Part shown: positions 22,969 through 31,651 of the stretch, one piece after another
How the letters are laid out: each line of letters starts with the position of its first letter
Position numbering within the stretch: the first letter of the stretch is position 1
Assembly: GCA_902802355.1 (NCBI GenBank)
Contig: CADCLU010000009.1
Location: 1 to 38,373 of the forward strand
Source of the DNA: an uncultured Erysipelotrichaceae bacterium
GTDB taxonomy: Bacteria > Bacillota_I > Bacilli_A > RFN20 > CAG-826
Direction: 5' to 3'
DNA: 38,373 bases
Position numbers and translations under genes: made by a program
Notes under the pieces: generated by a model
What the model saw: only the letters and a program-made list of their open reading frames with translations
Told to the model about the DNA's origin: nothing
Databases searched by the model: none

Positions 22969-23559
22969 ATGCCAAGGACACCTCAGCAAAATGCAATTAT
23001 CAGAGATAAGAGAAGGACAAAAATCTTACTCAAGACTCTAAAGCTTTTCGCAACCAAGGGCTTTGACGAAGTTACAATTGACGCAATTTCGATCGAAAGC
23101 GCGTGTTCCCATGGTTTGGTGTACCACTACTTCGAGAAGAAAGAAGACATCTTCAACGGTCTTTTCGAACTTCAGAGAGAAGACTATAACGAAACCATTT
23201 TCCCAAGGAACGCCGCTCTTGAAGCTGGTGGCTTGGGTGGCCTTAAACTCATCTGCGATCATTATGAGAAGTTCTACGGAGCAGATAAGATTCGCCTTTA
23301 TTTCCTTAAAACGAACGCATCACGCGACTATATGACATACACCTCCGTTAAGACCCTTAACGGCGAAAGCCCATTCAAGACCCTTGTCACCTTGCTTAAG
23401 CAAGCTATCGAAGCAGGCGAAATCCTTGAATGCGATGTCGAGGCCAAAGCTCGCCTCTTCTTAGACCTCGTAACGGGCACCCTAACAAGACTCATCTCCG
23501 CCAAAGAAAAAGAGCGCGAGATCAAGTCGGGCGCTCTCTACGAATTCATTCGTAAGTAA
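22969..23559 (+). CDS. TetR/AcrR family transcriptional regulator
   Basis: A 196-residue regulator. Residues 12-60 form the TetR helix-turn-helix: KILLKTLKLFATKGFDEVTIDAI, then ACSHGLVYHYFEKKEDIFNGLF. The C-terminal ligand domain is helical, variable and of unknown specificity. The start ATG 22969 has GGAG at six bases. It has its own strong promoter and lies between popT and the convergent sugar kinase gene, ending only one base before that gene's stop. Candidate targets are its own gene, popT or the nearby heptose divergon; the sequence does not decide. Confidence 0.93.
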   Translation: MPRTPQQNAIIRDKRRTKILLKTLKLFATKGFDEVTIDAISIESACSHGLVYHYFEKKEDIFNGLFELQREDYNETIFPRNAALEAGGLGGLKLICDHYEKFYGADKIRLYFLKTNASRDYMTYTSVKTLNGESPFKTLVTLLKQAIEAGEILECDVEAKARLFLDLVTGTLTRLISAKEKEREIKSGALYEFIRK

Positions 23560-23560
23560 T

Positions 23561-25114
23561 TTATTTCTTTATCTCACCGTTGTTGAAACGCTTAATCTTG
23601 GCGTAGGTTTTCGCTAAGCCAGGATACATTTTCAAGTAGGCTTCTTTATAAAGGTAATCGTAGACCTTGGCGTTTTCCTTATTCGGATAGAAAGTGTCTC
23701 TGACACGAACCATCTCTTTGACCGCTTCGGCAACAGAATGGTATTGACCAATCGCACAGAAGCCAGCAATAGCGGCACCAAGAGAGGAACTCTCTTTGGT
23801 CTGAACTCTGCTGACAGGTTTGCCAAATACGTCAGCGGTGATTTGGCAGATCTCGTCACTCACAGAACCACCACCAGAAACCCTTAACTCAGGGATCTTG
23901 TGTTTGAGCACTTTTTCAAAGTGTTCAATACCTTCACGCAAAGCATAGGCGATGCCTTCGATGATGGAACGATAGATGTGCTCGGTCGTGGTTGAATCGC
24001 TGAAGCCGACAATCGCACCTTTAGCTAATGGACGGGAAAGGCCTGGGCCCCAATATGGCTGAAGGACAAGGCCATCACATCCAGCAGGCACATCTTTAAG
24101 ATGTTCGTTGAAATAAGTGATGCTCTTTGGGTCTTCTTTACCTTTTCTACCGGCAATCTCTTTCATGAACCATTCGATCATCCAATATCCGCGATAGACC
24201 TGAATGTCCATGTTGTAGAAACCTTTCGCAGCGGATGGGTAGCCTGGAAGGAATGGCTCTGATTCGTGATATTTCGCGGTGGTCGTTTCGATTGAGGAGG
24301 CCGTACCATAGCTAAGCGCGCCAAGGGTCTCATCGATAACGCCCATGCCAAGGGTTTCGCAGGATTTGTCTGAGCCGGCAGCATAAACAATCGTCGCTTC
24401 TGGGATTCCAGTATCCTCTGCGGCCTTCTTGTTGATTCTTCCGATGATCTCGCCTTCGCCGACGAGTTCAGGAAGGAGGTCTCTTGTTAAGCCAAAGATC
24501 TGTCCGGTGAGATGTTTCTCAGGCTTCTTGTACCACTGCTTCTTTTTGAAATCGATTGGGTAGTGCCCCGCACAGTTTGAAGCGCAGTCTTTGAGTTCCC
24601 CTGTGAGAAGGAAATGCATGTAGGAGGAAACAGGAACGTACTTAACGACTTTGGACCAATTCTCTGGTTCGTTTTCTTGGATCCAGTTTGCCACGCATCT
24701 GCGTCTGTTGAAGTTGATCGTATCCGTCTTTCCGACGAGCTTAAAAAGAAATTGAGCCAGTTTTGGCAGGGGTTTTTCACATTTTGCGTTCCTCTGATCA
24801 AGCCAAAGAACGCTTGGTCTTATGACCTTCATGTGCTGATCAAGGAGGACGGCTGTATCACGGAAGCAGGTAAGCGTAATGCCCTTGATGTTCTTCATCG
24901 AGGATGGGTTTTCTCTAGCGAGTTCTTTGGTGCAAAGGCAAAGATCCTGGTAGTACTCATAAGGCTCTTTCTCAGCCCAGTTTGGTTGAAGGGAAAAGTA
25001 TGGTTGGTCGTAATCCTTTTTCTTCATGGCTACCATGTAACCGCGTTTGTCGAAAAGGGCGACACGGACACTTTGTGTCCCAAAGTCCATCGTCAAAATC
25101 AGGGGTTCGTTCAT
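23561..25114 (-). CDS. FGGY family carbohydrate kinase
   Basis: A 517-residue sugar kinase of the xylulokinase/glycerol kinase fold. Domain I begins with the phosphate-binding loop LTMDFGTQSVRVALFDKRG (about 6-24). WLDQRN near residue 120 is the substrate-loop signature. The second ATPase half shows AAGSDKSCETLG and the C-terminal adenosine site RVSGGGSVSDEICQITADVFG. The substrate cannot be read from sequence. Because the gene is divergent from a heptose operon and shares its regulatory gap, a ketoheptose such as sedoheptulose is a reasonable guess; FGGY sedoheptulokinases are known. ATG 25114 has GGAG at seven bases. The frame extends ten codons further upstream, but without a start site that fits. 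Confidence 0.88.
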   Translation of the reverse strand: MNEPLILTMDFGTQSVRVALFDKRGYMVAMKKKDYDQPYFSLQPNWAEKEPYEYYQDLCLCTKELARENPSSMKNIKGITLTCFRDTAVLLDQHMKVIRPSVLWLDQRNAKCEKPLPKLAQFLFKLVGKTDTINFNRRRCVANWIQENEPENWSKVVKYVPVSSYMHFLLTGELKDCASNCAGHYPIDFKKKQWYKKPEKHLTGQIFGLTRDLLPELVGEGEIIGRINKKAAEDTGIPEATIVYAAGSDKSCETLGMGVIDETLGALSYGTASSIETTTAKYHESEPFLPGYPSAAKGFYNMDIQVYRGYWMIEWFMKEIAGRKGKEDPKSITYFNEHLKDVPAGCDGLVLQPYWGPGLSRPLAKGAIVGFSDSTTTEHIYRSIIEGIAYALREGIEHFEKVLKHKIPELRVSGGGSVSDEICQITADVFGKPVSRVQTKESSSLGAAIAGFCAIGQYHSVAEAVKEMVRVRDTFYPNKENAKVYDYLYKEAYLKMYPGLAKTYAKIKRFNNGEIKK

Positions 25115-25134
25115 ATTAATTCTCCGTCTCGAAG

Positions 25135-25170
25135 ATTTTAGCACGAAAGACCACTTTTAAGTGGTAAAAT
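25135..25170. promoter_or_regulatory. Divergent promoters sharing one palindromic operator
   Basis: Two extended -10 elements face away from each other: TGCTAAAAT on the minus strand (25143-25135, toward the FGGY kinase) and TGGTAAAAT on the plus strand (25162-25170, toward the heptose operon). Between them, and touching the plus one, is a perfect inverted repeat ACCACTT-TT-AAGTGGT (25150-25165). One regulator bound here would control both directions. Neither promoter has a clear -35. Confidence 0.6.
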
Positions 25171-25200
25171 GTTTAGGCTTTCAGAAAGGATCAACGAATC

Positions 25201-26181
25201 ATGATCATCTCACGCGCCCCTTTCAGGGTTAGCTTCTGCGGAGGCGGAAGCGACATTCCTTCTTTCTACGAGAAATACGGCGGCTGCGTTATTTCCACCA
25301 CCATCAGGAAATACTGCTACCTCGCCATCAACCCTGCGTTCAACAAAGAATCAATAACTCTCAAATATTCGAAAACCGAGATAGTCGACGATGTCGAGAA
25401 AATCGACCATCGCATTTTCAAACAGGTTCTCAAAGACTTCGGTAACAAAGGTATCGAGATTACTTCAATGGCCGACATCCCTTCGGGAACCGGTCTTGGG
25501 TCATCTTCCTCTTTCACCGTCGCCCTTCTGAAACTCATGTACACCTGGAACGAAGAAGCCGTTTCAACCTACAAGGTTGCCAAGAGAGCTTGCGAGATTG
25601 AAATCAACGAGCTCGGAAACCCAATCGGAAAACAGGATCAGTTCGCTGCCGCTTTCGGCGGTCTTCGTTATTACGAATTCTGCCCAGACGGATTCGTCAA
25701 AGTCGAACCAATCATCATGAAGAGGGAATCTTTCGAGAAACTCGAAAAGAACCTCATGATGTTCTATACCGGAGAAGTCCGCGACGCGAACAACATCCTT
25801 GCCAAAGAAACCAAGAATCTTGCGACCGACGAAGACAAGATCAACGCCACCAAGAAGCTTTGCGAAATGACAAAGCGCCTTAAGGCGGAGTTCGAAAACA
25901 ATAACGTCGACGCCCTTGGCCCAATCCTCAAAGAAGGCTGGGAGCTCAAGAAGTCTTTGGCTAACGGAATCACCAACCCTCTCATCGATGAAGCGTATGA
26001 AAAGGCCATGAAAGCCGGTGCAAGCGGAGGCAAGCTCCTCGGCGCTGGCGGAGGCGGATTCCTCCTCTTCTACGTCAATTCCGACGAAAAGAAAGATGCC
26101 GTCAGAAAAGCTTTGTCGAACCTCAAGGAAATGCCTTTCGAGCTTGATCAGGCCGGATGCTCGATCATCTTCATGGAGTAA
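25201..26181 (+). CDS. hddA: GHMP kinase, D-glycero-D-manno-heptose 7-phosphate kinase type (HddA-like)
   Basis: A 326-residue GHMP kinase. Motif 1 is the start RAPFRVSFCGGGSDIPSF (5-22). Motif 2 is IPSGTGLGSSSSFTVALL (93-110). Motif 3 is ASGGKLLGAGGGGFLLF near 277-293. The GGGSD start and overall length match HddA, which phosphorylates heptose 7-phosphate at C1 to the 1,7-bisphosphate, not mevalonate or galactose kinases. First gene of a three-gene operon with the nucleotidyltransferase-phosphatase fusion (two bases on) and a phosphoheptose isomerase. AAAGGA precedes ATG 25201 by ten bases. Fucose kinase-like activity is the main alternative. Confidence 0.82.
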   Translation: MIISRAPFRVSFCGGGSDIPSFYEKYGGCVISTTIRKYCYLAINPAFNKESITLKYSKTEIVDDVEKIDHRIFKQVLKDFGNKGIEITSMADIPSGTGLGSSSSFTVALLKLMYTWNEEAVSTYKVAKRACEIEINELGNPIGKQDQFAAAFGGLRYYEFCPDGFVKVEPIIMKRESFEKLEKNLMMFYTGEVRDANNILAKETKNLATDEDKINATKKLCEMTKRLKAEFENNNVDALGPILKEGWELKKSLANGITNPLIDEAYEKAMKAGASGGKLLGAGGGGFLLFYVNSDEKKDAVRKALSNLKEMPFELDQAGCSIIFME

Positions 26182-26183
26182 CG

Positions 26184-27494
26184 ATGTACGCAGTAATCCA
26201 AGCAGGCGGAGCAGGCACTAGACTTAAAACCATTACTGGCGATTTACCAAAGGTAATGGTCGAGATATGCGGTAAACCGATTCTTGAATGGCAGCTTGAA
26301 AGTCTCAAGAAAAGCGGCATCCACGATTTTCTTGTGATCATTTCGAAAAACGGAAAAGCGATTTCCGATTATTTTGGTGATGGAAAGAAGTTTGGTGTCA
26401 GCATCTCTTACATCAAAGAAGAGTCGCCTTTGGGAACTGCTGGAGGCTTATATTTCGCAAGAGACATCATCAAAGATGATTTCATTCTTTGCTTCGGAGA
26501 TTTGATGCTCGATGTCGATTGGATGAGATTCCACCGTTTCCACAAGGAAAAGGGTTCTGCTTTAACCGCTTTCGCACATCCAAATTCACACCCATTTGAC
26601 AGTGACCTTCTTGTCTCCGATGAGGACGAGAAAATCATCAAGATCGATAGCAAGAACAACGTCCGTGATTACTACTATGAGAACCTTACGAACGCTGGAC
26701 TTTATGTCTGCTCGAAAGAAGTCCTGGATTATGTTGCTGAACCGACCAAAATCGACTTTGAGAAAGTCGTCTTAAAACACTTCGTCGAAGATGGTAAAGC
26801 GTACGCCTATAGATCTAGCGAATATGTCAAAGACTGTGGCACACCAGATAGATTCTATTCAGTCGAAAACGACCTCAAAAACGGCATTATCCATGGCAAA
26901 TCCCTTGCAAATCCGCAAAAATGCATCTTTTTGGACAGGGACGGAACCATTAACAAATACAATGGTTTGGTCACCAAAACGGATGAATTAAAGCTCGAAG
27001 AAGATGCTGCCTCAGCAATCCAAAAAATCAACTCTTCCAAATACCTTGCGATCTGTGTCACCAACCAGCCCGTTATCGCTCGCGGCGACACGACGCTTGA
27101 AGAGCTCAAAAACATTCACAACAAGATGGAAACCCTCCTCGGAAAAGGCGGAGCCTATCTTGATGCCCTCTACTTCTGCCCTCATCATCCAGACAAAGGT
27201 TTTGAAGGCGAGGTTCCTGAATTCAAAATCGACTGCGATTGTCGAAAACCAAAAATTGGCCTTCTTAAGAAAGCCGAAGCAAGGTTCAACATCGACCTCA
27301 AAAAGAGTTGGTTAATCGGAGATACGGATAGAGACATCCAAACCGGAATCAACGGCGGTTGCAGAACGATCTTCTTGGATACAACTCCAAATCCTCCAAT
27401 ACGCTTCAAAGATGCAAAGCCTGATTTTGTGTGCCATTCTTTAACCGAAGCGGTTAATCTTATATTGACCTTAGAAAGGGACGACCATGATTGA
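26184..27494 (+). CDS. Fused heptose-1-phosphate nucleotidyltransferase and GmhB-type phosphatase
   Basis: A 436-residue two-domain enzyme. Residues 1-235 are a nucleotidyltransferase (HddC/RmlA-like): QAGGAGTRLKTITGDLPKVM (6-25) binds the NTP, and CFGDLMLDVDW (103-113) is the metal site. Residues 246-402 are a HAD phosphatase of the GmhB type: DRDGT (251-255) with the nucleophile, zinc ligands Cys332, His334, Cys351 and Cys353, and GDTDRD (379-384). The fusion would remove the C7 phosphate from heptose 1,7-bisphosphate and activate the 1-phosphate. The HddA neighbour points to the alpha anomer and GDP, but nucleotide choice is not proven. I start at ATG 26184 (GGAG five bases before), two bases after hddA. 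It overlaps the next gene by eight bases. Confidence 0.83.
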   Translation: MYAVIQAGGAGTRLKTITGDLPKVMVEICGKPILEWQLESLKKSGIHDFLVIISKNGKAISDYFGDGKKFGVSISYIKEESPLGTAGGLYFARDIIKDDFILCFGDLMLDVDWMRFHRFHKEKGSALTAFAHPNSHPFDSDLLVSDEDEKIIKIDSKNNVRDYYYENLTNAGLYVCSKEVLDYVAEPTKIDFEKVVLKHFVEDGKAYAYRSSEYVKDCGTPDRFYSVENDLKNGIIHGKSLANPQKCIFLDRDGTINKYNGLVTKTDELKLEEDAASAIQKINSSKYLAICVTNQPVIARGDTTLEELKNIHNKMETLLGKGGAYLDALYFCPHHPDKGFEGEVPEFKIDCDCRKPKIGLLKKAEARFNIDLKKSWLIGDTDRDIQTGINGGCRTIFLDTTPNPPIRFKDAKPDFVCHSLTEAVNLILTLERDDHD

Positions 27495-28095
27495 TTTCAA
27501 AAACGACATCGAGAAATACTACGAGCTCGAAATCGAGACCATTAAGAAGTTAGACAAAGACGAGATGAACAAAGCGATGAACGCTCTCGTCAAACATTAC
27601 GACGACCAGTCGACCATCTACGTTTTCGGAAACGGAGGCAGCGCCGCCACCGCTTCACATATGGTTTGCGATTTCAACAAAGGCATCTGCTCCAAGCTAG
27701 AGAAGAGATTTAAGTTTGTTTGTCTCAATGACAACGTTCCGATAATGACAGCTATCGCTAATGACACCACGTTCGACGATCTCTTCTACTATCAGCTTGA
27801 GAACAGGCTCAAGAAAGAAGACTTGGTCTTGGCCATCTCAGGAAGTGGCAACTCCAAGAACATCATGAAGGCTGCCGAATATGCCAAAAAGGTTGGCGCA
27901 GAGATCCTTTCCGTCACTGGTTATGACGGAGGCAAGTTAGCCAAGATCGCCGATTATCATTTGCACGCCCCTGTGAACGATATCCAGGTTGCCGAAGACC
28001 TTCATATGACTTTCGACCACGTCATCATGCAGATCCTCTGGCGCTATCTCAGCAAGAGAGAAGGCATTGAAGCGACCTACACTCCAAACAAGTAA
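27487..28095 (+). CDS. gmhA: SIS-domain phosphoheptose isomerase (GmhA-like)
   Basis: A 202-residue SIS protein. FGNGGSAATASHM (47-59) and AISGSGNSKNIMKAA (116-130) are the sugar-phosphate loops, and His173 sits in AEDLHMTFDHVIM where GmhA has its catalytic histidine. GmhA makes D-glycero-D-manno-heptose 7-phosphate from sedoheptulose 7-phosphate, the entry step of the pathway formed with the two upstream genes. One change stands out: the catalytic glutamate of E. coli GmhA (Glu65, in HFAEEL) aligns with Asp62 in HMVCDF. It may still work, or the substrate may differ. The ATG overlaps the end of the upstream fusion gene by eight bases, and a terminator follows. Confidence 0.82.
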   Translation: MIDFKNDIEKYYELEIETIKKLDKDEMNKAMNALVKHYDDQSTIYVFGNGGSAATASHMVCDFNKGICSKLEKRFKFVCLNDNVPIMTAIANDTTFDDLFYYQLENRLKKEDLVLAISGSGNSKNIMKAAEYAKKVGAEILSVTGYDGGKLAKIADYHLHAPVNDIQVAEDLHMTFDHVIMQILWRYLSKREGIEATYTPNK

Positions 28096-28114
28096 AAACC
28101 AAAAAATCCTTAAC

Positions 28115-28147
28115 AAAAACGCGCTGGTTTTGTTCCAACGCGTTTTA
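28115..28147. terminator. Bidirectional terminator between the heptose operon and the phosphodiesterase gene
   Basis: AAAACGCG (28116-28123) and CGCGTTTT (28139-28146) form a stem, with TGG/CCA able to extend it inside. A-run before and T-run after serve both convergent transcription units. It overlaps the stop codon of the minus-strand gene. Confidence 0.8.
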
Positions 28148-28867
28148 TTTTGACATTATTTCTTTAACGAGCTCCGGCTCTATCAGCTGGAATGTTTGGG
28201 CGTCCGCTAATGCTTTGTTTTCCTTCATGTGCTCAGGATCTTCAACGGTCCAGGTGTTGAGGATATGCTTCTTGTGATATTTCCTAACCTCAGGTTTCGT
28301 GAGGAGGCATTCCTCAATATCAACGGAGTCGAAAAGCCACTTCCACTTCCACACCCAGTAATACTCCTTGCAGATAAGAAGGCCGGTTGGGAAGCCGCTG
28401 CTCTTCATCATGAACAAAGCTCTTGGGTCAAAAGAGATAACAACGATCTTGTTTCTGTCTTTGATTTGCTTGAGGGCTTTCTTAGCGGCTTTGGCTAAAG
28501 GCTTGTAGTTGTTCTGATGAACCTTTAGCTCAACGACGATCAGTTTTTGTTCTTTGTTGAGGTCGAGAACCTCTTGGAAGGTTGGAACTTCCTCTCCATC
28601 TAAGAGGCGGTAGCCCTCTTTGATCTCCGCAAGAGTTAGTTCTTCGATGATGCCCTCTTTGCCTGTTGTGCGTTTAAGGTCGTCGTCATGGCAAACGATA
28701 AGTTGGTTGTCTTTGGTAACGTGAATATCTAGTTCAAAAGGGAGGTCGTTTTTGATCGCGTTCTCAAAAGCTTTGAGACCGTTTTCCGTGAGGCTCGCGT
28801 TATGTAGTCCGCGGTGCGCGATAGGTCCAAAATACTCAGAGCCGAACTTTCTCTCTTTACGTTTCAT
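28145..28867 (-). CDS. Glycerophosphodiester phosphodiesterase
   Basis: A 240-residue cytosolic GDPD-fold enzyme (no signal peptide) that splits glycerophosphodiesters into glycerol 3-phosphate and an alcohol. The family motifs are visible: AHRG (17-20) with a TEN (27-29) that aligns with the usual PEN, FELDIHVTKD (44-53) with metal-binding Glu45 and Asp47, and CHDDDLKRTTG (59-69) with the second catalytic His60. VELKVH near 120 is the next metal strand. I use ATG 28867; a GTG two codons upstream is possible. No Shine-Dalgarno. A perfect TATAAT lies eight bases before the ATG, so the transcript is leaderless or nearly so. Likely roles are lipid turnover or processing of polyglycerophosphate. 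Confidence 0.88.
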   Translation of the reverse strand: MKRKERKFGSEYFGPIAHRGLHNASLTENGLKAFENAIKNDLPFELDIHVTKDNQLIVCHDDDLKRTTGKEGIIEELTLAEIKEGYRLLDGEEVPTFQEVLDLNKEQKLIVVELKVHQNNYKPLAKAAKKALKQIKDRNKIVVISFDPRALFMMKSSGFPTGLLICKEYYWVWKWKWLFDSVDIEECLLTKPEVRKYHKKHILNTWTVEDPEHMKENKALADAQTFQLIEPELVKEIMSK

Positions 28868-28875
28868 ACGCACAA

Positions 28876-29005: not shown

Positions 29006-31651
29006 ATGGCAGACAAAAAATATGTATTCTCCTTCAAGGAAGCCCACGAGCAGAAGCTCGGCAAGGAAATCCTTGGCGGAAAAGGCTTTGGTCTTGCCGA
29101 GATGACAGCCGCTGGCGTCAACATCCCAGCCGGTTTCACAATCTCGACCGAAGCTTGCAACCTCTACTACAAATCCGGAAAACAGATTCCTGATTACGTG
29201 TGGAATGACGTCGTGGCCCATCTCCACGAAGTTGAAAAACTTACCGGAAAAGAGTTCGGCGGCAAAGGAATGCCGTTACTCGTTTCTGTCCGTTCTGGCG
29301 CTCGTACCTCGATGCCAGGCATGATGGACACCATTCTTAACTTGGGTTTAAACGATGACACCGTTGAAGCCATGGTCAAAGCTACCGGCAATGAGCGTTT
29401 CGCTTACGATAGCTACCGCCGCTTCATTTTGATGTTCACCAACATCGCCAAAGGCCACCCAAGGACTGAAATGGACAAGATGCTCGACAAGCTTAAAGAG
29501 GACAACGGTTACAAACTTGATACCGAAGTCACCTCCGAGCAGCTCAAAGGCTTAGTTGCCAAGTACAAAGAGTACTACAAATCCGTCTTCGGTGAAGAAT
29601 TCCCAACCGATCCATATGTTCAGCTCAAAGAGGCAGTCGCTGCCGTCTTCCGTAGCTGGGACAACCCACGTGCTAACGTTTACCGTCAGATGAACGGCAT
29701 CCCATATGAATGGGGCACCGCCGTCAACGTTCAGAGCATGGTCTTCGGTAACATGGGCGAAGACAGCGGCACTGGTGTCGCTTTCTCCCGTTCCCCATCC
29801 ACCGGTGAAAAGAAAATCTACGCTGAATTCTTACCAAACGCCCAGGGCGAAGACGTCGTCGCTGGTGTTCGCACCCCTCTTCACATCGACGAGCTCGAGA
29901 AGAGAATGCCAGAAGTCTACAAAGAATTCATGGCCACCATCACCCGCATGGAAAACTACTTCCACGATATGCAGGATATGGAATACACCATCGAGAAAGG
30001 CAAGCTCTTCTTCCTCCAGGCCCGTAACGGCAAGAGAACTGCTAGAGCCGCTCTCAAAATCGCTTGCGATTTAGTTGATGAAGGTCTCATCGACGAGAAA
30101 GAAGCCGTTCTCCGCGTCGAGCCAAAACAGCTCAATGACTTACTCCACCCAACCTTCGACGAAGCTGACCTCAAGAAGCATGACGCCGTTATCCATGGTC
30201 TTCCAGCTTCCCCAGGCGCTGGCACTGGTGCCATCGTCTTCAGCGCTGAAGAATGCAAAGCCCAGCACGATGCTGGCAAGAAGGTTGTCCTTGTCCGTGC
30301 CGAGACTTCCCCAGAAGACATCATCGGTATGGTCAACTCCGAAGCTATCCTTACCGCCCGTGGAGGCATGACCTCCCACGCCGCAGTCGTCGCCCGTTCC
30401 ATGGGTAAGTGCTGCGTCGCCGGCGCTACCGAAATCATCGTTGATGAAGAAGCCAAGATCGTCAAAGTTGGCGACCGTGTCTTCCACGAAGGCGATATCC
30501 TTTCCGTCAACGGTTCCACCGGTCTCGTCTACGAAGGCGAAATCAAGATGGTTCCAGCCAACCTCGGTGGCGACTTCGGTCGCTTAATGGCTTGGGCCGA
30601 CAAATATCGTCGCTTAAAGGTCCGTGCCAACTGCAACACCCCAGAAGATGCCCACAACGCCCGTAGATTCGGTGCCGAAGGCATTGGTCTTTGCAGAACC
30701 GAACGTATGTTCTTCGCTCCAGACAGAATCCTCAACATGAGATCCATGATTCTTTCTGACACCACCGAACAGCGCGAAGCCGCTCTCGAGAGAATCCGTC
30801 CATTCATCGCTGACGACTTCTACCAGATGTATCTTGCTAACCCAGATACCAACGTTAACATCCGTTTACTTGACCCGCCTCTCCACGAGTTCTTACCAGA
30901 AGCCAACGACGAAGCCAACATCAAAGACATCGCCGAAAAGCTCGGTGTCACCGAGAAGAAGGTCAAGGAGAGAATCGAACAGCTCCACCAGGCCAACCCA
31001 ATGATGGGCTTCCGTGGTGTCCGTCTCTGCGTTGCTTACCCAGAGATCTACGCCATGCTCGCCCGCGCCATCGTCCAGGCTGCCATCAAGGCCAGCAAGG
31101 AACTTGGCCACGAAGTTGAGCCAGAAATCATGATCCCTCTCGCTGGCGAACTCAAAGAATACGAGTGGGCCAAGAGCGTTGTTGTCGAAGCCGTCGAAGC
31201 TGAGATGGCTAAAGCCAACACCAAACTTGTCTACCACGTTGGTACCATGATCGAAATCCCAAGGGGCGCCCTCCGCGCCGGGGACCTTGCCAAAGAGGCA
31301 GAGTTCTTCTCCTTCGGAACCAACGACTTAACCCAGCTCACCATGGGCTTCTCCCGTGATGATGCCGGTCAGTTCTTGCCATACTACTACAACCGCAAAA
31401 TCTACGAATTCGACCCATTCCAGACCATCGATGTCAACGGTGTCGGCGAACTCGTTAAGATTGCTGTTGAACGTGGCCGTGCTACCCGCCCAGACCTCTT
31501 GCTCGGTGTCTGCGGTGAAACCGGTGGCGATCCAGCTTCCATCATGTTCTATGATGAAGTCGGTCTCGACTATGTCAGCTGCTCACCATTCCGTGTCCCA
31601 CTTGCTAGACTCGCTGCTGCTCAGGCCAGCATCACCCACAGCAAGAAATAA
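29006..31651 (+). CDS. ppdK: Pyruvate, phosphate dikinase
   Basis: An 881-residue cytosolic enzyme interconverting pyruvate + ATP + Pi and phosphoenolpyruvate + AMP + PPi; length is standard (about 875). The N-terminal ATP-grasp domain starts at GKEILGGKGFGLAEM. The swivelling phosphohistidine domain has GGMTSHAAVVAR, with His458 as phosphoacceptor and Thr456 as the usual regulatory site. The C-terminal TIM barrel has the PEP site GLCRTERMF, FGTNDLTQ and Cys836 in GVCGETGGD. AGGAGG lies five to six bases before the ATG. Codons are strongly biased to C-ending forms (GCC, GTC, ATC) more than in neighbours, which suggests very high expression. Probably glycolytic PPi-saving use, as in many anaerobic Bacillota. 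It has its own promoter and terminator. Confidence 0.98.
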   Translation: MADKKYVFSFKEAHEQKLGKEILGGKGFGLAEMTAAGVNIPAGFTISTEACNLYYKSGKQIPDYVWNDVVAHLHEVEKLTGKEFGGKGMPLLVSVRSGARTSMPGMMDTILNLGLNDDTVEAMVKATGNERFAYDSYRRFILMFTNIAKGHPRTEMDKMLDKLKEDNGYKLDTEVTSEQLKGLVAKYKEYYKSVFGEEFPTDPYVQLKEAVAAVFRSWDNPRANVYRQMNGIPYEWGTAVNVQSMVFGNMGEDSGTGVAFSRSPSTGEKKIYAEFLPNAQGEDVVAGVRTPLHIDELEKRMPEVYKEFMATITRMENYFHDMQDMEYTIEKGKLFFLQARNGKRTARAALKIACDLVDEGLIDEKEAVLRVEPKQLNDLLHPTFDEADLKKHDAVIHGLPASPGAGTGAIVFSAEECKAQHDAGKKVVLVRAETSPEDIIGMVNSEAILTARGGMTSHAAVVARSMGKCCVAGATEIIVDEEAKIVKVGDRVFHEGDILSVNGSTGLVYEGEIKMVPANLGGDFGRLMAWADKYRRLKVRANCNTPEDAHNARRFGAEGIGLCRTERMFFAPDRILNMRSMILSDTTEQREAALERIRPFIADDFYQMYLANPDTNVNIRLLDPPLHEFLPEANDEANIKDIAEKLGVTEKKVKERIEQLHQANPMMGFRGVRLCVAYPEIYAMLARAIVQAAIKASKELGHEVEPEIMIPLAGELKEYEWAKSVVVEAVEAEMAKANTKLVYHVGTMIEIPRGALRAGDLAKEAEFFSFGTNDLTQLTMGFSRDDAGQFLPYYYNRKIYEFDPFQTIDVNGVGELVKIAVERGRATRPDLLLGVCGETGGDPASIMFYDEVGLDYVSCSPFRVPLARLAAAQASITHSKK

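Follow-up and report, generated by a model that had tools for sequence, protein, structure and literature searches.

A probable heptose-type nucleotide-sugar operon with a variant isomerase lies beside an FGGY kinase gene in an uncultured Erysipelotrichaceae bacterium

Organization of the locus

The window analyzed here is the whole 38,373-nucleotide contig CADCLU010000009.1 of an uncultured Erysipelotrichaceae bacterium (assembly GCA_902802355.1). The genome, 1.09 Mb in 30 contigs of which the window is contig 9, is 96.6% complete. The near relatives of this genome are titled uncultured Bacilli, Bacillales or Erysipelotrichaceae, and several of them come from ruminant guts. At the center of the study stand a three-gene operon related to heptose-nucleotide biosynthesis and a divergently oriented gene for an FGGY-family carbohydrate kinase. 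A first-pass annotation, made from the sequence alone, had joined the kinase and the operon into one co-controlled unit, in which the kinase would feed the pathway by phosphorylating a ketoheptose taken from outside.

The operon is encoded on the plus strand and is tightly packed. Its first gene (25201..26181) encodes an HddA-like GHMP sugar-1-kinase, recognized by the N- and C-terminal GHMP kinase domains of Pfam and by the NCBIfam HddA model. After a 2-bp gap follows a fusion of a sugar-1-phosphate nucleotidyltransferase (HddC/MurU/GDP-mannose-pyrophosphorylase-like) with a GmhB-like HAD phosphatase (26184..27494; Pfam NTP_transferase and HAD, NCBIfam). The third gene overlaps the second by 8 bp and encodes a GmhA-like SIS protein (27487..28095), assigned by Pfam SIS_2, alignment, tree and structural model. 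The FGGY kinase (Pfam FGGY_N/FGGY_C) occupies 23561..25111 on the minus strand, and an 89-bp gap (25112..25200) separates it from the operon. Its likely start is the ATG at 25111 (MNEPLILTMDFGTQ), with the stop at 23561; the GTG at 25144 that had been listed as the start sits upstream, inside the gap. The four genes and their common gap, as first described, are all borne out by sequence, Pfam and NCBIfam. The NCBIfam names for the four products are XylB, HddA, GmhB/HddC-like and GmhA, none of which reaches a curated heptose equivalog cut-off.

Distribution and synteny of the kinase and the operon

Across a family survey of 146 genomes, the FGGY kinase, counted at E <= 1e-60, is present in 125. 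A strong HddA relative (E <= 5.3e-61) occurs in 11, and the remaining HddA matches are weak (<= 37.3 bits) and resemble other GHMP kinases. The kinase accompanies 10 of the 11 strong HddA relatives and is retained in 115 of the 135 genomes that have none, and the two genes are not associated (Fisher p = 1.0). They face each other in four of the 11 genomes (G000, G129, G044 and G024), lie on different contigs in five (G115, G037, G138, G114 and G067) and share a contig at a distance of about 5 kb in G102. The interval between kinase and HddA gene in G102 (L037:10805-15799) holds a frame of 1664 residues that is lipoprotein-like close to its beginning, and the operon of that genome contains a glycosyltransferase-like frame.

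The usual neighbor of the kinase is a gene that we take, by eye from its sequence, to encode pyruvate phosphate dikinase (PPDK). In the window it lies behind the operon (29006..31651, plus strand; also placed by synteny), with a gene of the glycerophosphodiester phosphodiesterase family (GDPD; 28145..28873, minus strand; Pfam) in between. Twenty kinase loci were sampled in which the genome or the contig lacks the operon at that place. In 14 of them the kinase is divergent to PPDK across 321 bp or less, and in five PPDK stands within 3.4 kb behind another gene; no PPDK was seen in the remaining locus (L089). A genome of the same genus, G068, has the order kinase-GDPD-PPDK with the GDPD gene in the same spot, which is the window arrangement minus the operon.

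Relatives of the operon itself were collected by scanning the genome_contigs collection with eight HddA-like proteins, which gave 144 relatives, of which 80 loci were retained. These comprise 23 near loci (L101-L123) and 57 distant loci (L124-L180), the latter mostly from Lachnospiraceae and other Firmicutes, including Alicyclobacillus and Paenibacillus, with a few from other phyla by title. The order kinase-operon-PPDK can be read directly in 18 of the near loci. The contig or stretch ends before the full order in four, and no kinase was seen upstream of the operon in L116. Divergent kinase and operon are found in 20/23 near loci. By contrast, no FGGY gene occurs within the available stretch in any of the 57 distant loci.

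The simplest account of these gene orders is that a resident spacer between kinase and PPDK either received the operon or lost it, and the position kept in 20 of the 23 near loci would thus reflect common descent. The divergent arrangement does recur, as had been proposed, and several of its gaps carry outward extended -10 elements; a link between kinase and operon beyond position was not confirmed. The idea of a single co-controlled functional unit is not supported, since the kinase persists in most genomes without a strong HddA relative and PPDK is its usual divergent partner.

One further locus, L082:8561-9709 (minus strand, G094), has a nucleotidyltransferase-GmhB-like gene alone between kinase and PPDK, with no HddA or GmhA relatives there. 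It was considered as a half-deleted copy of the operon and set aside, being merely 36% identical to the window fusion.

Transketolase is the usual source of sedoheptulose 7-phosphate (S7P). Its gene was found in each of 26 genomes searched, of which 11 have a strong HddA relative and 15 have none; S7P should therefore be available.

The isomerase and its altered metal site

The SIS protein has a fold of the GmhA class. Its model (pLDDT 95.0) matches 1tk9 best (Z 27.0, rmsd 1.7, 186 residues aligned), and the arabinose-5-phosphate isomerase 2xhz is far off (Z 18.6). DiaA has the same fold and ties with GmhA (Z 26.7); as DiaA is not known to be an isomerase, fold alone does not settle the identity of the protein.

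In Burkholderia pseudomallei GmhA, the zinc ligands are H64, E68, Q175 and H183. The report on that enzyme calls them completely conserved, describes Q175E as inactive and gives 6% activity for D61A (PMC5705639). Neisseria gonorrhoeae GmhA is reported to have the same metal site (PMC5387315). The window protein has its fold in common with both (2x3y, Z 26.0; 5i01, Z 26.2), and its four candidate metal ligands align with theirs; one ligand of the site is contributed by the adjacent subunit. Its residues differ from theirs, and all 72 window-type proteins carry T, H, D, E and H at the positions of D61, H64, E68, Q175 and H183. The ligand set H-E-Q-H is thus H-D-E-H throughout, and D61, which lies in the channel between the paired active sites, is T. 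The window protein itself has H58-D62-E170-H178, plus T55. SIS proteins of the variant type are also found in Anaerovibrio lipolyticus (L129), Paenibacillus paeoniae (L173) and Butyrivibrio (L141/L158). All six type A proteins taken from related genomes show the canonical letters, as do four of five PDB rows. The exception is 5by2 (Colwellia), which bears the title sedoheptulose 7-phosphate isomerase but has H in place of D61 and Q in place of E68, and may not be an active GmhA.

When the changed columns are excluded from the tree, the window-type proteins group as one clade (support 100/99), whose stem measures 1.39 changes per column. Both types coexist in genome G238 on different contigs, namely the variant with T, H, D, E and H (L181) and a canonical GmhA (L188), which argues against simple replacement of one by the other. 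The window genome has one match to TIGR00441. NCBIfam cut-offs proved uninformative for telling the two types apart, since neither type passes. We noticed no paper on the window-type clade among open PMC papers.

Either the metal site has been re-tuned or the protein makes a different sugar phosphate. Because all four positions can still bind metal, loss of function would be less likely than a re-tuned site. The proposed GmhA assignment is weakened, as metal-site residues reported to be fully conserved are changed.

The GHMP kinase, the fusion protein and the destination of the sugar

The GHMP kinase scores 185 bits against NCBIfam HddA, below the 600-bit cut-off, and its best PDB match is 3k85. 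In the heptokinase WcbL, activity is reported to be abolished by mutating R13, D22, Q162, D163 and S118-S120 (PMC4691232). The equivalents of R13, D22, Q162 and D163 are R, D, Q and D in all 80 retained loci; serine is found at the S119 and S120 positions in 80/80 and at the S118 position in 76/80. In the kinase tree, a 100/100 branch splits the window type from the solved HddAs 3k85, 4usm and 4n3o, at a total distance of about 2.9 changes per column. GHMP kinases of the window's wider clade in G114, G145 and G067 adjoin a GmhA with the canonical residues D, H, E, Q and H. This pairing favors a heptose 7-phosphate as substrate and is the best indirect sign of it. Strict co-segregation of kinase and isomerase types was also considered. 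It is broken by these same three genomes and by G238, in which the kinase beside the variant isomerase (L181) forms a long branch.

The fusion protein retains the GxGTR, DxDG and Zn-type CPH...CxC motifs in all 72 loci with a covering alignment (74 aligned). The motifs of the GmhB phosphatase (HAD DxDG and Zn-type C-x-H...C-x-C) are accordingly present in every covered case.

Gene content of the distant loci bears on the fate of the product. Of the 57 distant loci, 44 have an SDR gene, assigned to the GDP_Man_Dehyd/Epimerase kind by testing a piece of one; none of the 23 near loci has it. Its product may modify the nucleotide diphosphate (NDP)-sugar. By eye, glycosyltransferase genes resembling family 2 occur in 33/57 distant loci and ABC-2 type exporter genes in 16/57, which together point to a surface glycan as the destination.

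The FGGY kinase

The window genome has three FGGY_N matches, of which the window kinase is the third. Of the other two, one (L001) lies directly 3' of a gene that reads as xylose isomerase, and one (L002) carries the glycerol-kinase motif NQRETT; by sequence, separate XylB-like and GlpK-like genes are present besides the window kinase. The window kinase falls below every NCBIfam equivalog cut-off. Its best score is for xylulokinase XylB (245.8 bits against the TIGR01312 cut-off of 380.25); glycerol kinase GlpK reaches 144.2 bits against a TIGR01311 cut-off of 590, with TCFRDT in place of NQRETT. At the substrate-side motif the alignment shows FRDT, which resembles RET of glycerol kinase more than MHG of the E. 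coli xylulokinase. Human sedoheptulokinase also carries MHG.

The structural model (pLDDT 85.7) matches the gluconate kinase 3gbt best (Z 38.9), with the xylulokinases 3ll3, 5vm1 and 3ifr within 1 Z unit and the AI-2 kinase LsrK and glycerol kinases within about 2. The structural match points to no one substrate, as all four kinds of kinase crowd the top of the list. The window kinase resembles them in having both FGGY domains and a matching fold over the whole length (Z 33-39 among the 50 matches listed), and differs from them in its sub-threshold NCBIfam scores and in FRDT. Taken with its distribution, the kinase appears to be a family-core household gene with a job of its own, and a neighbor of the pathway rather than its feeder.

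The divergent gap

Two outward-facing extended -10 elements can be seen by eye in the gap, TGCTAAAAT at 25143-25135 on the minus strand and TGGTAAAAT at 25162-25170 on the plus strand, in agreement with the initial description. A consensus scan of the gap found no sigma-70 two-hexamer promoter. Between the two extended -10 elements lies the inverted repeat ACCACTT-TT-AAGTGGT (25150..25165), which had been called a perfect palindrome. It really consists of 7-bp arms around a TT center that is not self-complementary, and its last 4 bases overlap the plus-strand extended -10.

Arms of at least 7 bp arise in 3-6% of shuffled 89-bp gaps, depending on the loop allowed. The repeat is identical in the seven nearest relatives (L101-L107), which says little because about 45 bp surrounding it are identical as well. 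Overall it occurs in 8 of 21 divergent gaps, all from near-identical strains, and is absent from the 13 other loci in which kinase and HddA gene face each other. No inverted repeat is common to the gaps beyond the nearest strains. Relatives thus keep the operon without the repeat and, in the distant loci, without the kinase in the available stretch, the outcome that the first-pass annotation itself had named as refuting its model. Outward extended -10 elements on both sides are more widespread: of ten more distant gaps that were scanned, six have them (L108, L109, L113, L115, L119 and L122).

As a regulon operator the repeat was rejected, since the window genome has merely five sites with up to two mismatches, against three for a reversed control pattern. 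The sole other site within one mismatch (L098:1501-1516, G000:C1:139591-139606) lies upstream of a gene read by eye as gatC and downstream of one read as rpiB. Inverted repeats are also present in the kinase/PPDK gaps of L075, L079, L083, L087, L092 and L093, where the arms measure 8-10 bp and the sequence differs in each genome.

Interpretation

We favor, with a probability of roughly 0.7, the reading that the three plus-strand genes form a heptose-type nucleotide-sugar operon placed in the spacer between a household FGGY kinase and PPDK, with the kinase as an unrelated neighbor. The sequences themselves establish the families, residues, clades, distribution and synteny; from these we infer a probable heptose-type route, with each of its reactions, its substrate, nucleotide and acceptor, as well as the lack of a metabolic link to the kinase. 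The SIS protein would isomerize a ketose phosphate, most likely S7P from transketolase. The GHMP kinase would add the 1-phosphate, the HAD half of the fusion would remove the far phosphate, and the nucleotidyltransferase half would make an NDP-heptose for a surface glycan. The originally proposed heptose-nucleotide route thus stands as far as the relationship of the operon to that pathway goes; its isomerase falls into a clade apart, with a presumably re-tuned metal site, so that the sugar made may be a different one.

Several observations weigh against this reading. The isomerase departs from GmhA at three key residues, and S7P may not be its substrate. The branch that parts the GHMP kinase from the solved HddAs is long and fully supported. 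The divergent order in 20/23 near loci could reflect real coupling. Finally, GT9, the sole glycosyltransferase family searched, yielded no heptosyltransferase in any of 17 family genomes.

A bolder version of the pathway is conceivable, though rather unlikely. The isomerase clade could represent a new sugar-phosphate isomerase, in which two ligands of the GmhA metal site have been exchanged in nature (Glu to Asp and Gln to Glu). From S7P or another heptulose phosphate it would make an aldoheptose phosphate other than that of GmhA, such as the C2 epimer D-glycero-D-gluco. The module, widespread in Firmicutes, would then lead to an undescribed NDP-heptose that is annotated as a GDP-manno-heptose pathway.

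Shared transcriptional control of chemically unrelated genes is a rather unlikely alternative, in which promoters that face away from each other overlap within the gap, about 80-200 bp long. The overlapping outward elements of the window and of the six more distant gaps are consistent with it, whereas the lack of a conserved operator or of a common inverted repeat beyond the nearest strains speaks against it, as does the kinase being equally divergent to PPDK elsewhere.

It is doubtful that the operon makes an activated non-heptose, such as a pentose or hexose derivative, and bears its heptose names through transferred annotation. The changes at T55, D62 and E170, the distance of the GHMP kinase clade from solved HddAs and the sub-threshold heptose equivalog scores would fit such a product. 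Against it, the SIS model stands nearest to GmhA and DiaA and far from 2xhz, the sugar-binding residues of WcbL are kept across the 80 loci, and sister GHMP kinases are paired with canonical GmhA.

Very improbable, and discarded on distribution and synteny, is the original scavenging model, in which the FGGY kinase would convert an imported ketoheptose into the 7-phosphate for the operon, both under one regulator at the palindrome: divergent adjacency in the near loci, outward -10 elements in several gaps and a kinase that is no standard XylB or GlpK by cut-off are outweighed by kinases retained without a strong HddA, distant operons without a kinase in the available stretch, a repeat confined to nearly identical gaps, transketolase in every genome tested and a substrate-side motif nearer to RET than to MHG. 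We noticed no paper on a bacterial ketoheptose kinase feeding a heptose-nucleotide pathway among open PMC papers.

Relation to known systems and implications

The favored heptose-type reading is akin to the GDP-heptose pathway, and the closest comparison is the Campylobacter jejuni system (PMC10680097). That system and the operon have the same four activities by family, namely SIS isomerase, GHMP 1-kinase, HAD phosphatase and nucleotidyltransferase. The operon differs in the fusion of nucleotidyltransferase and phosphatase, in a kinase of a distant clade, and in an isomerase with the equivalents of D61T, E68D and Q175E.

Genes of this kind receive heptose names from annotation pipelines. Should the altered metal site yield another product, the surface glycans predicted for many gut and rumen Firmicutes would be wrong. 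If the protein is merely a compensated GmhA, the metal ligands are not fully conserved as had been stated, a point that matters for the design of GmhA inhibitors. The locus also offers a caution on synteny, in that a seemingly co-regulated divergent neighbor can be a household gene that borders the site by chance.

Neighboring features

A gene for a TetR-family regulator (22969..23559, plus strand; Pfam) is convergent with the kinase and adjoins it also in genomes without the operon. Where the SIS and GDPD genes converge, at 28110-28150, an AT-flanked inverted repeat surrounds CGCG; by eye it looks like a common two-way terminator, although the consensus scan does not list it.

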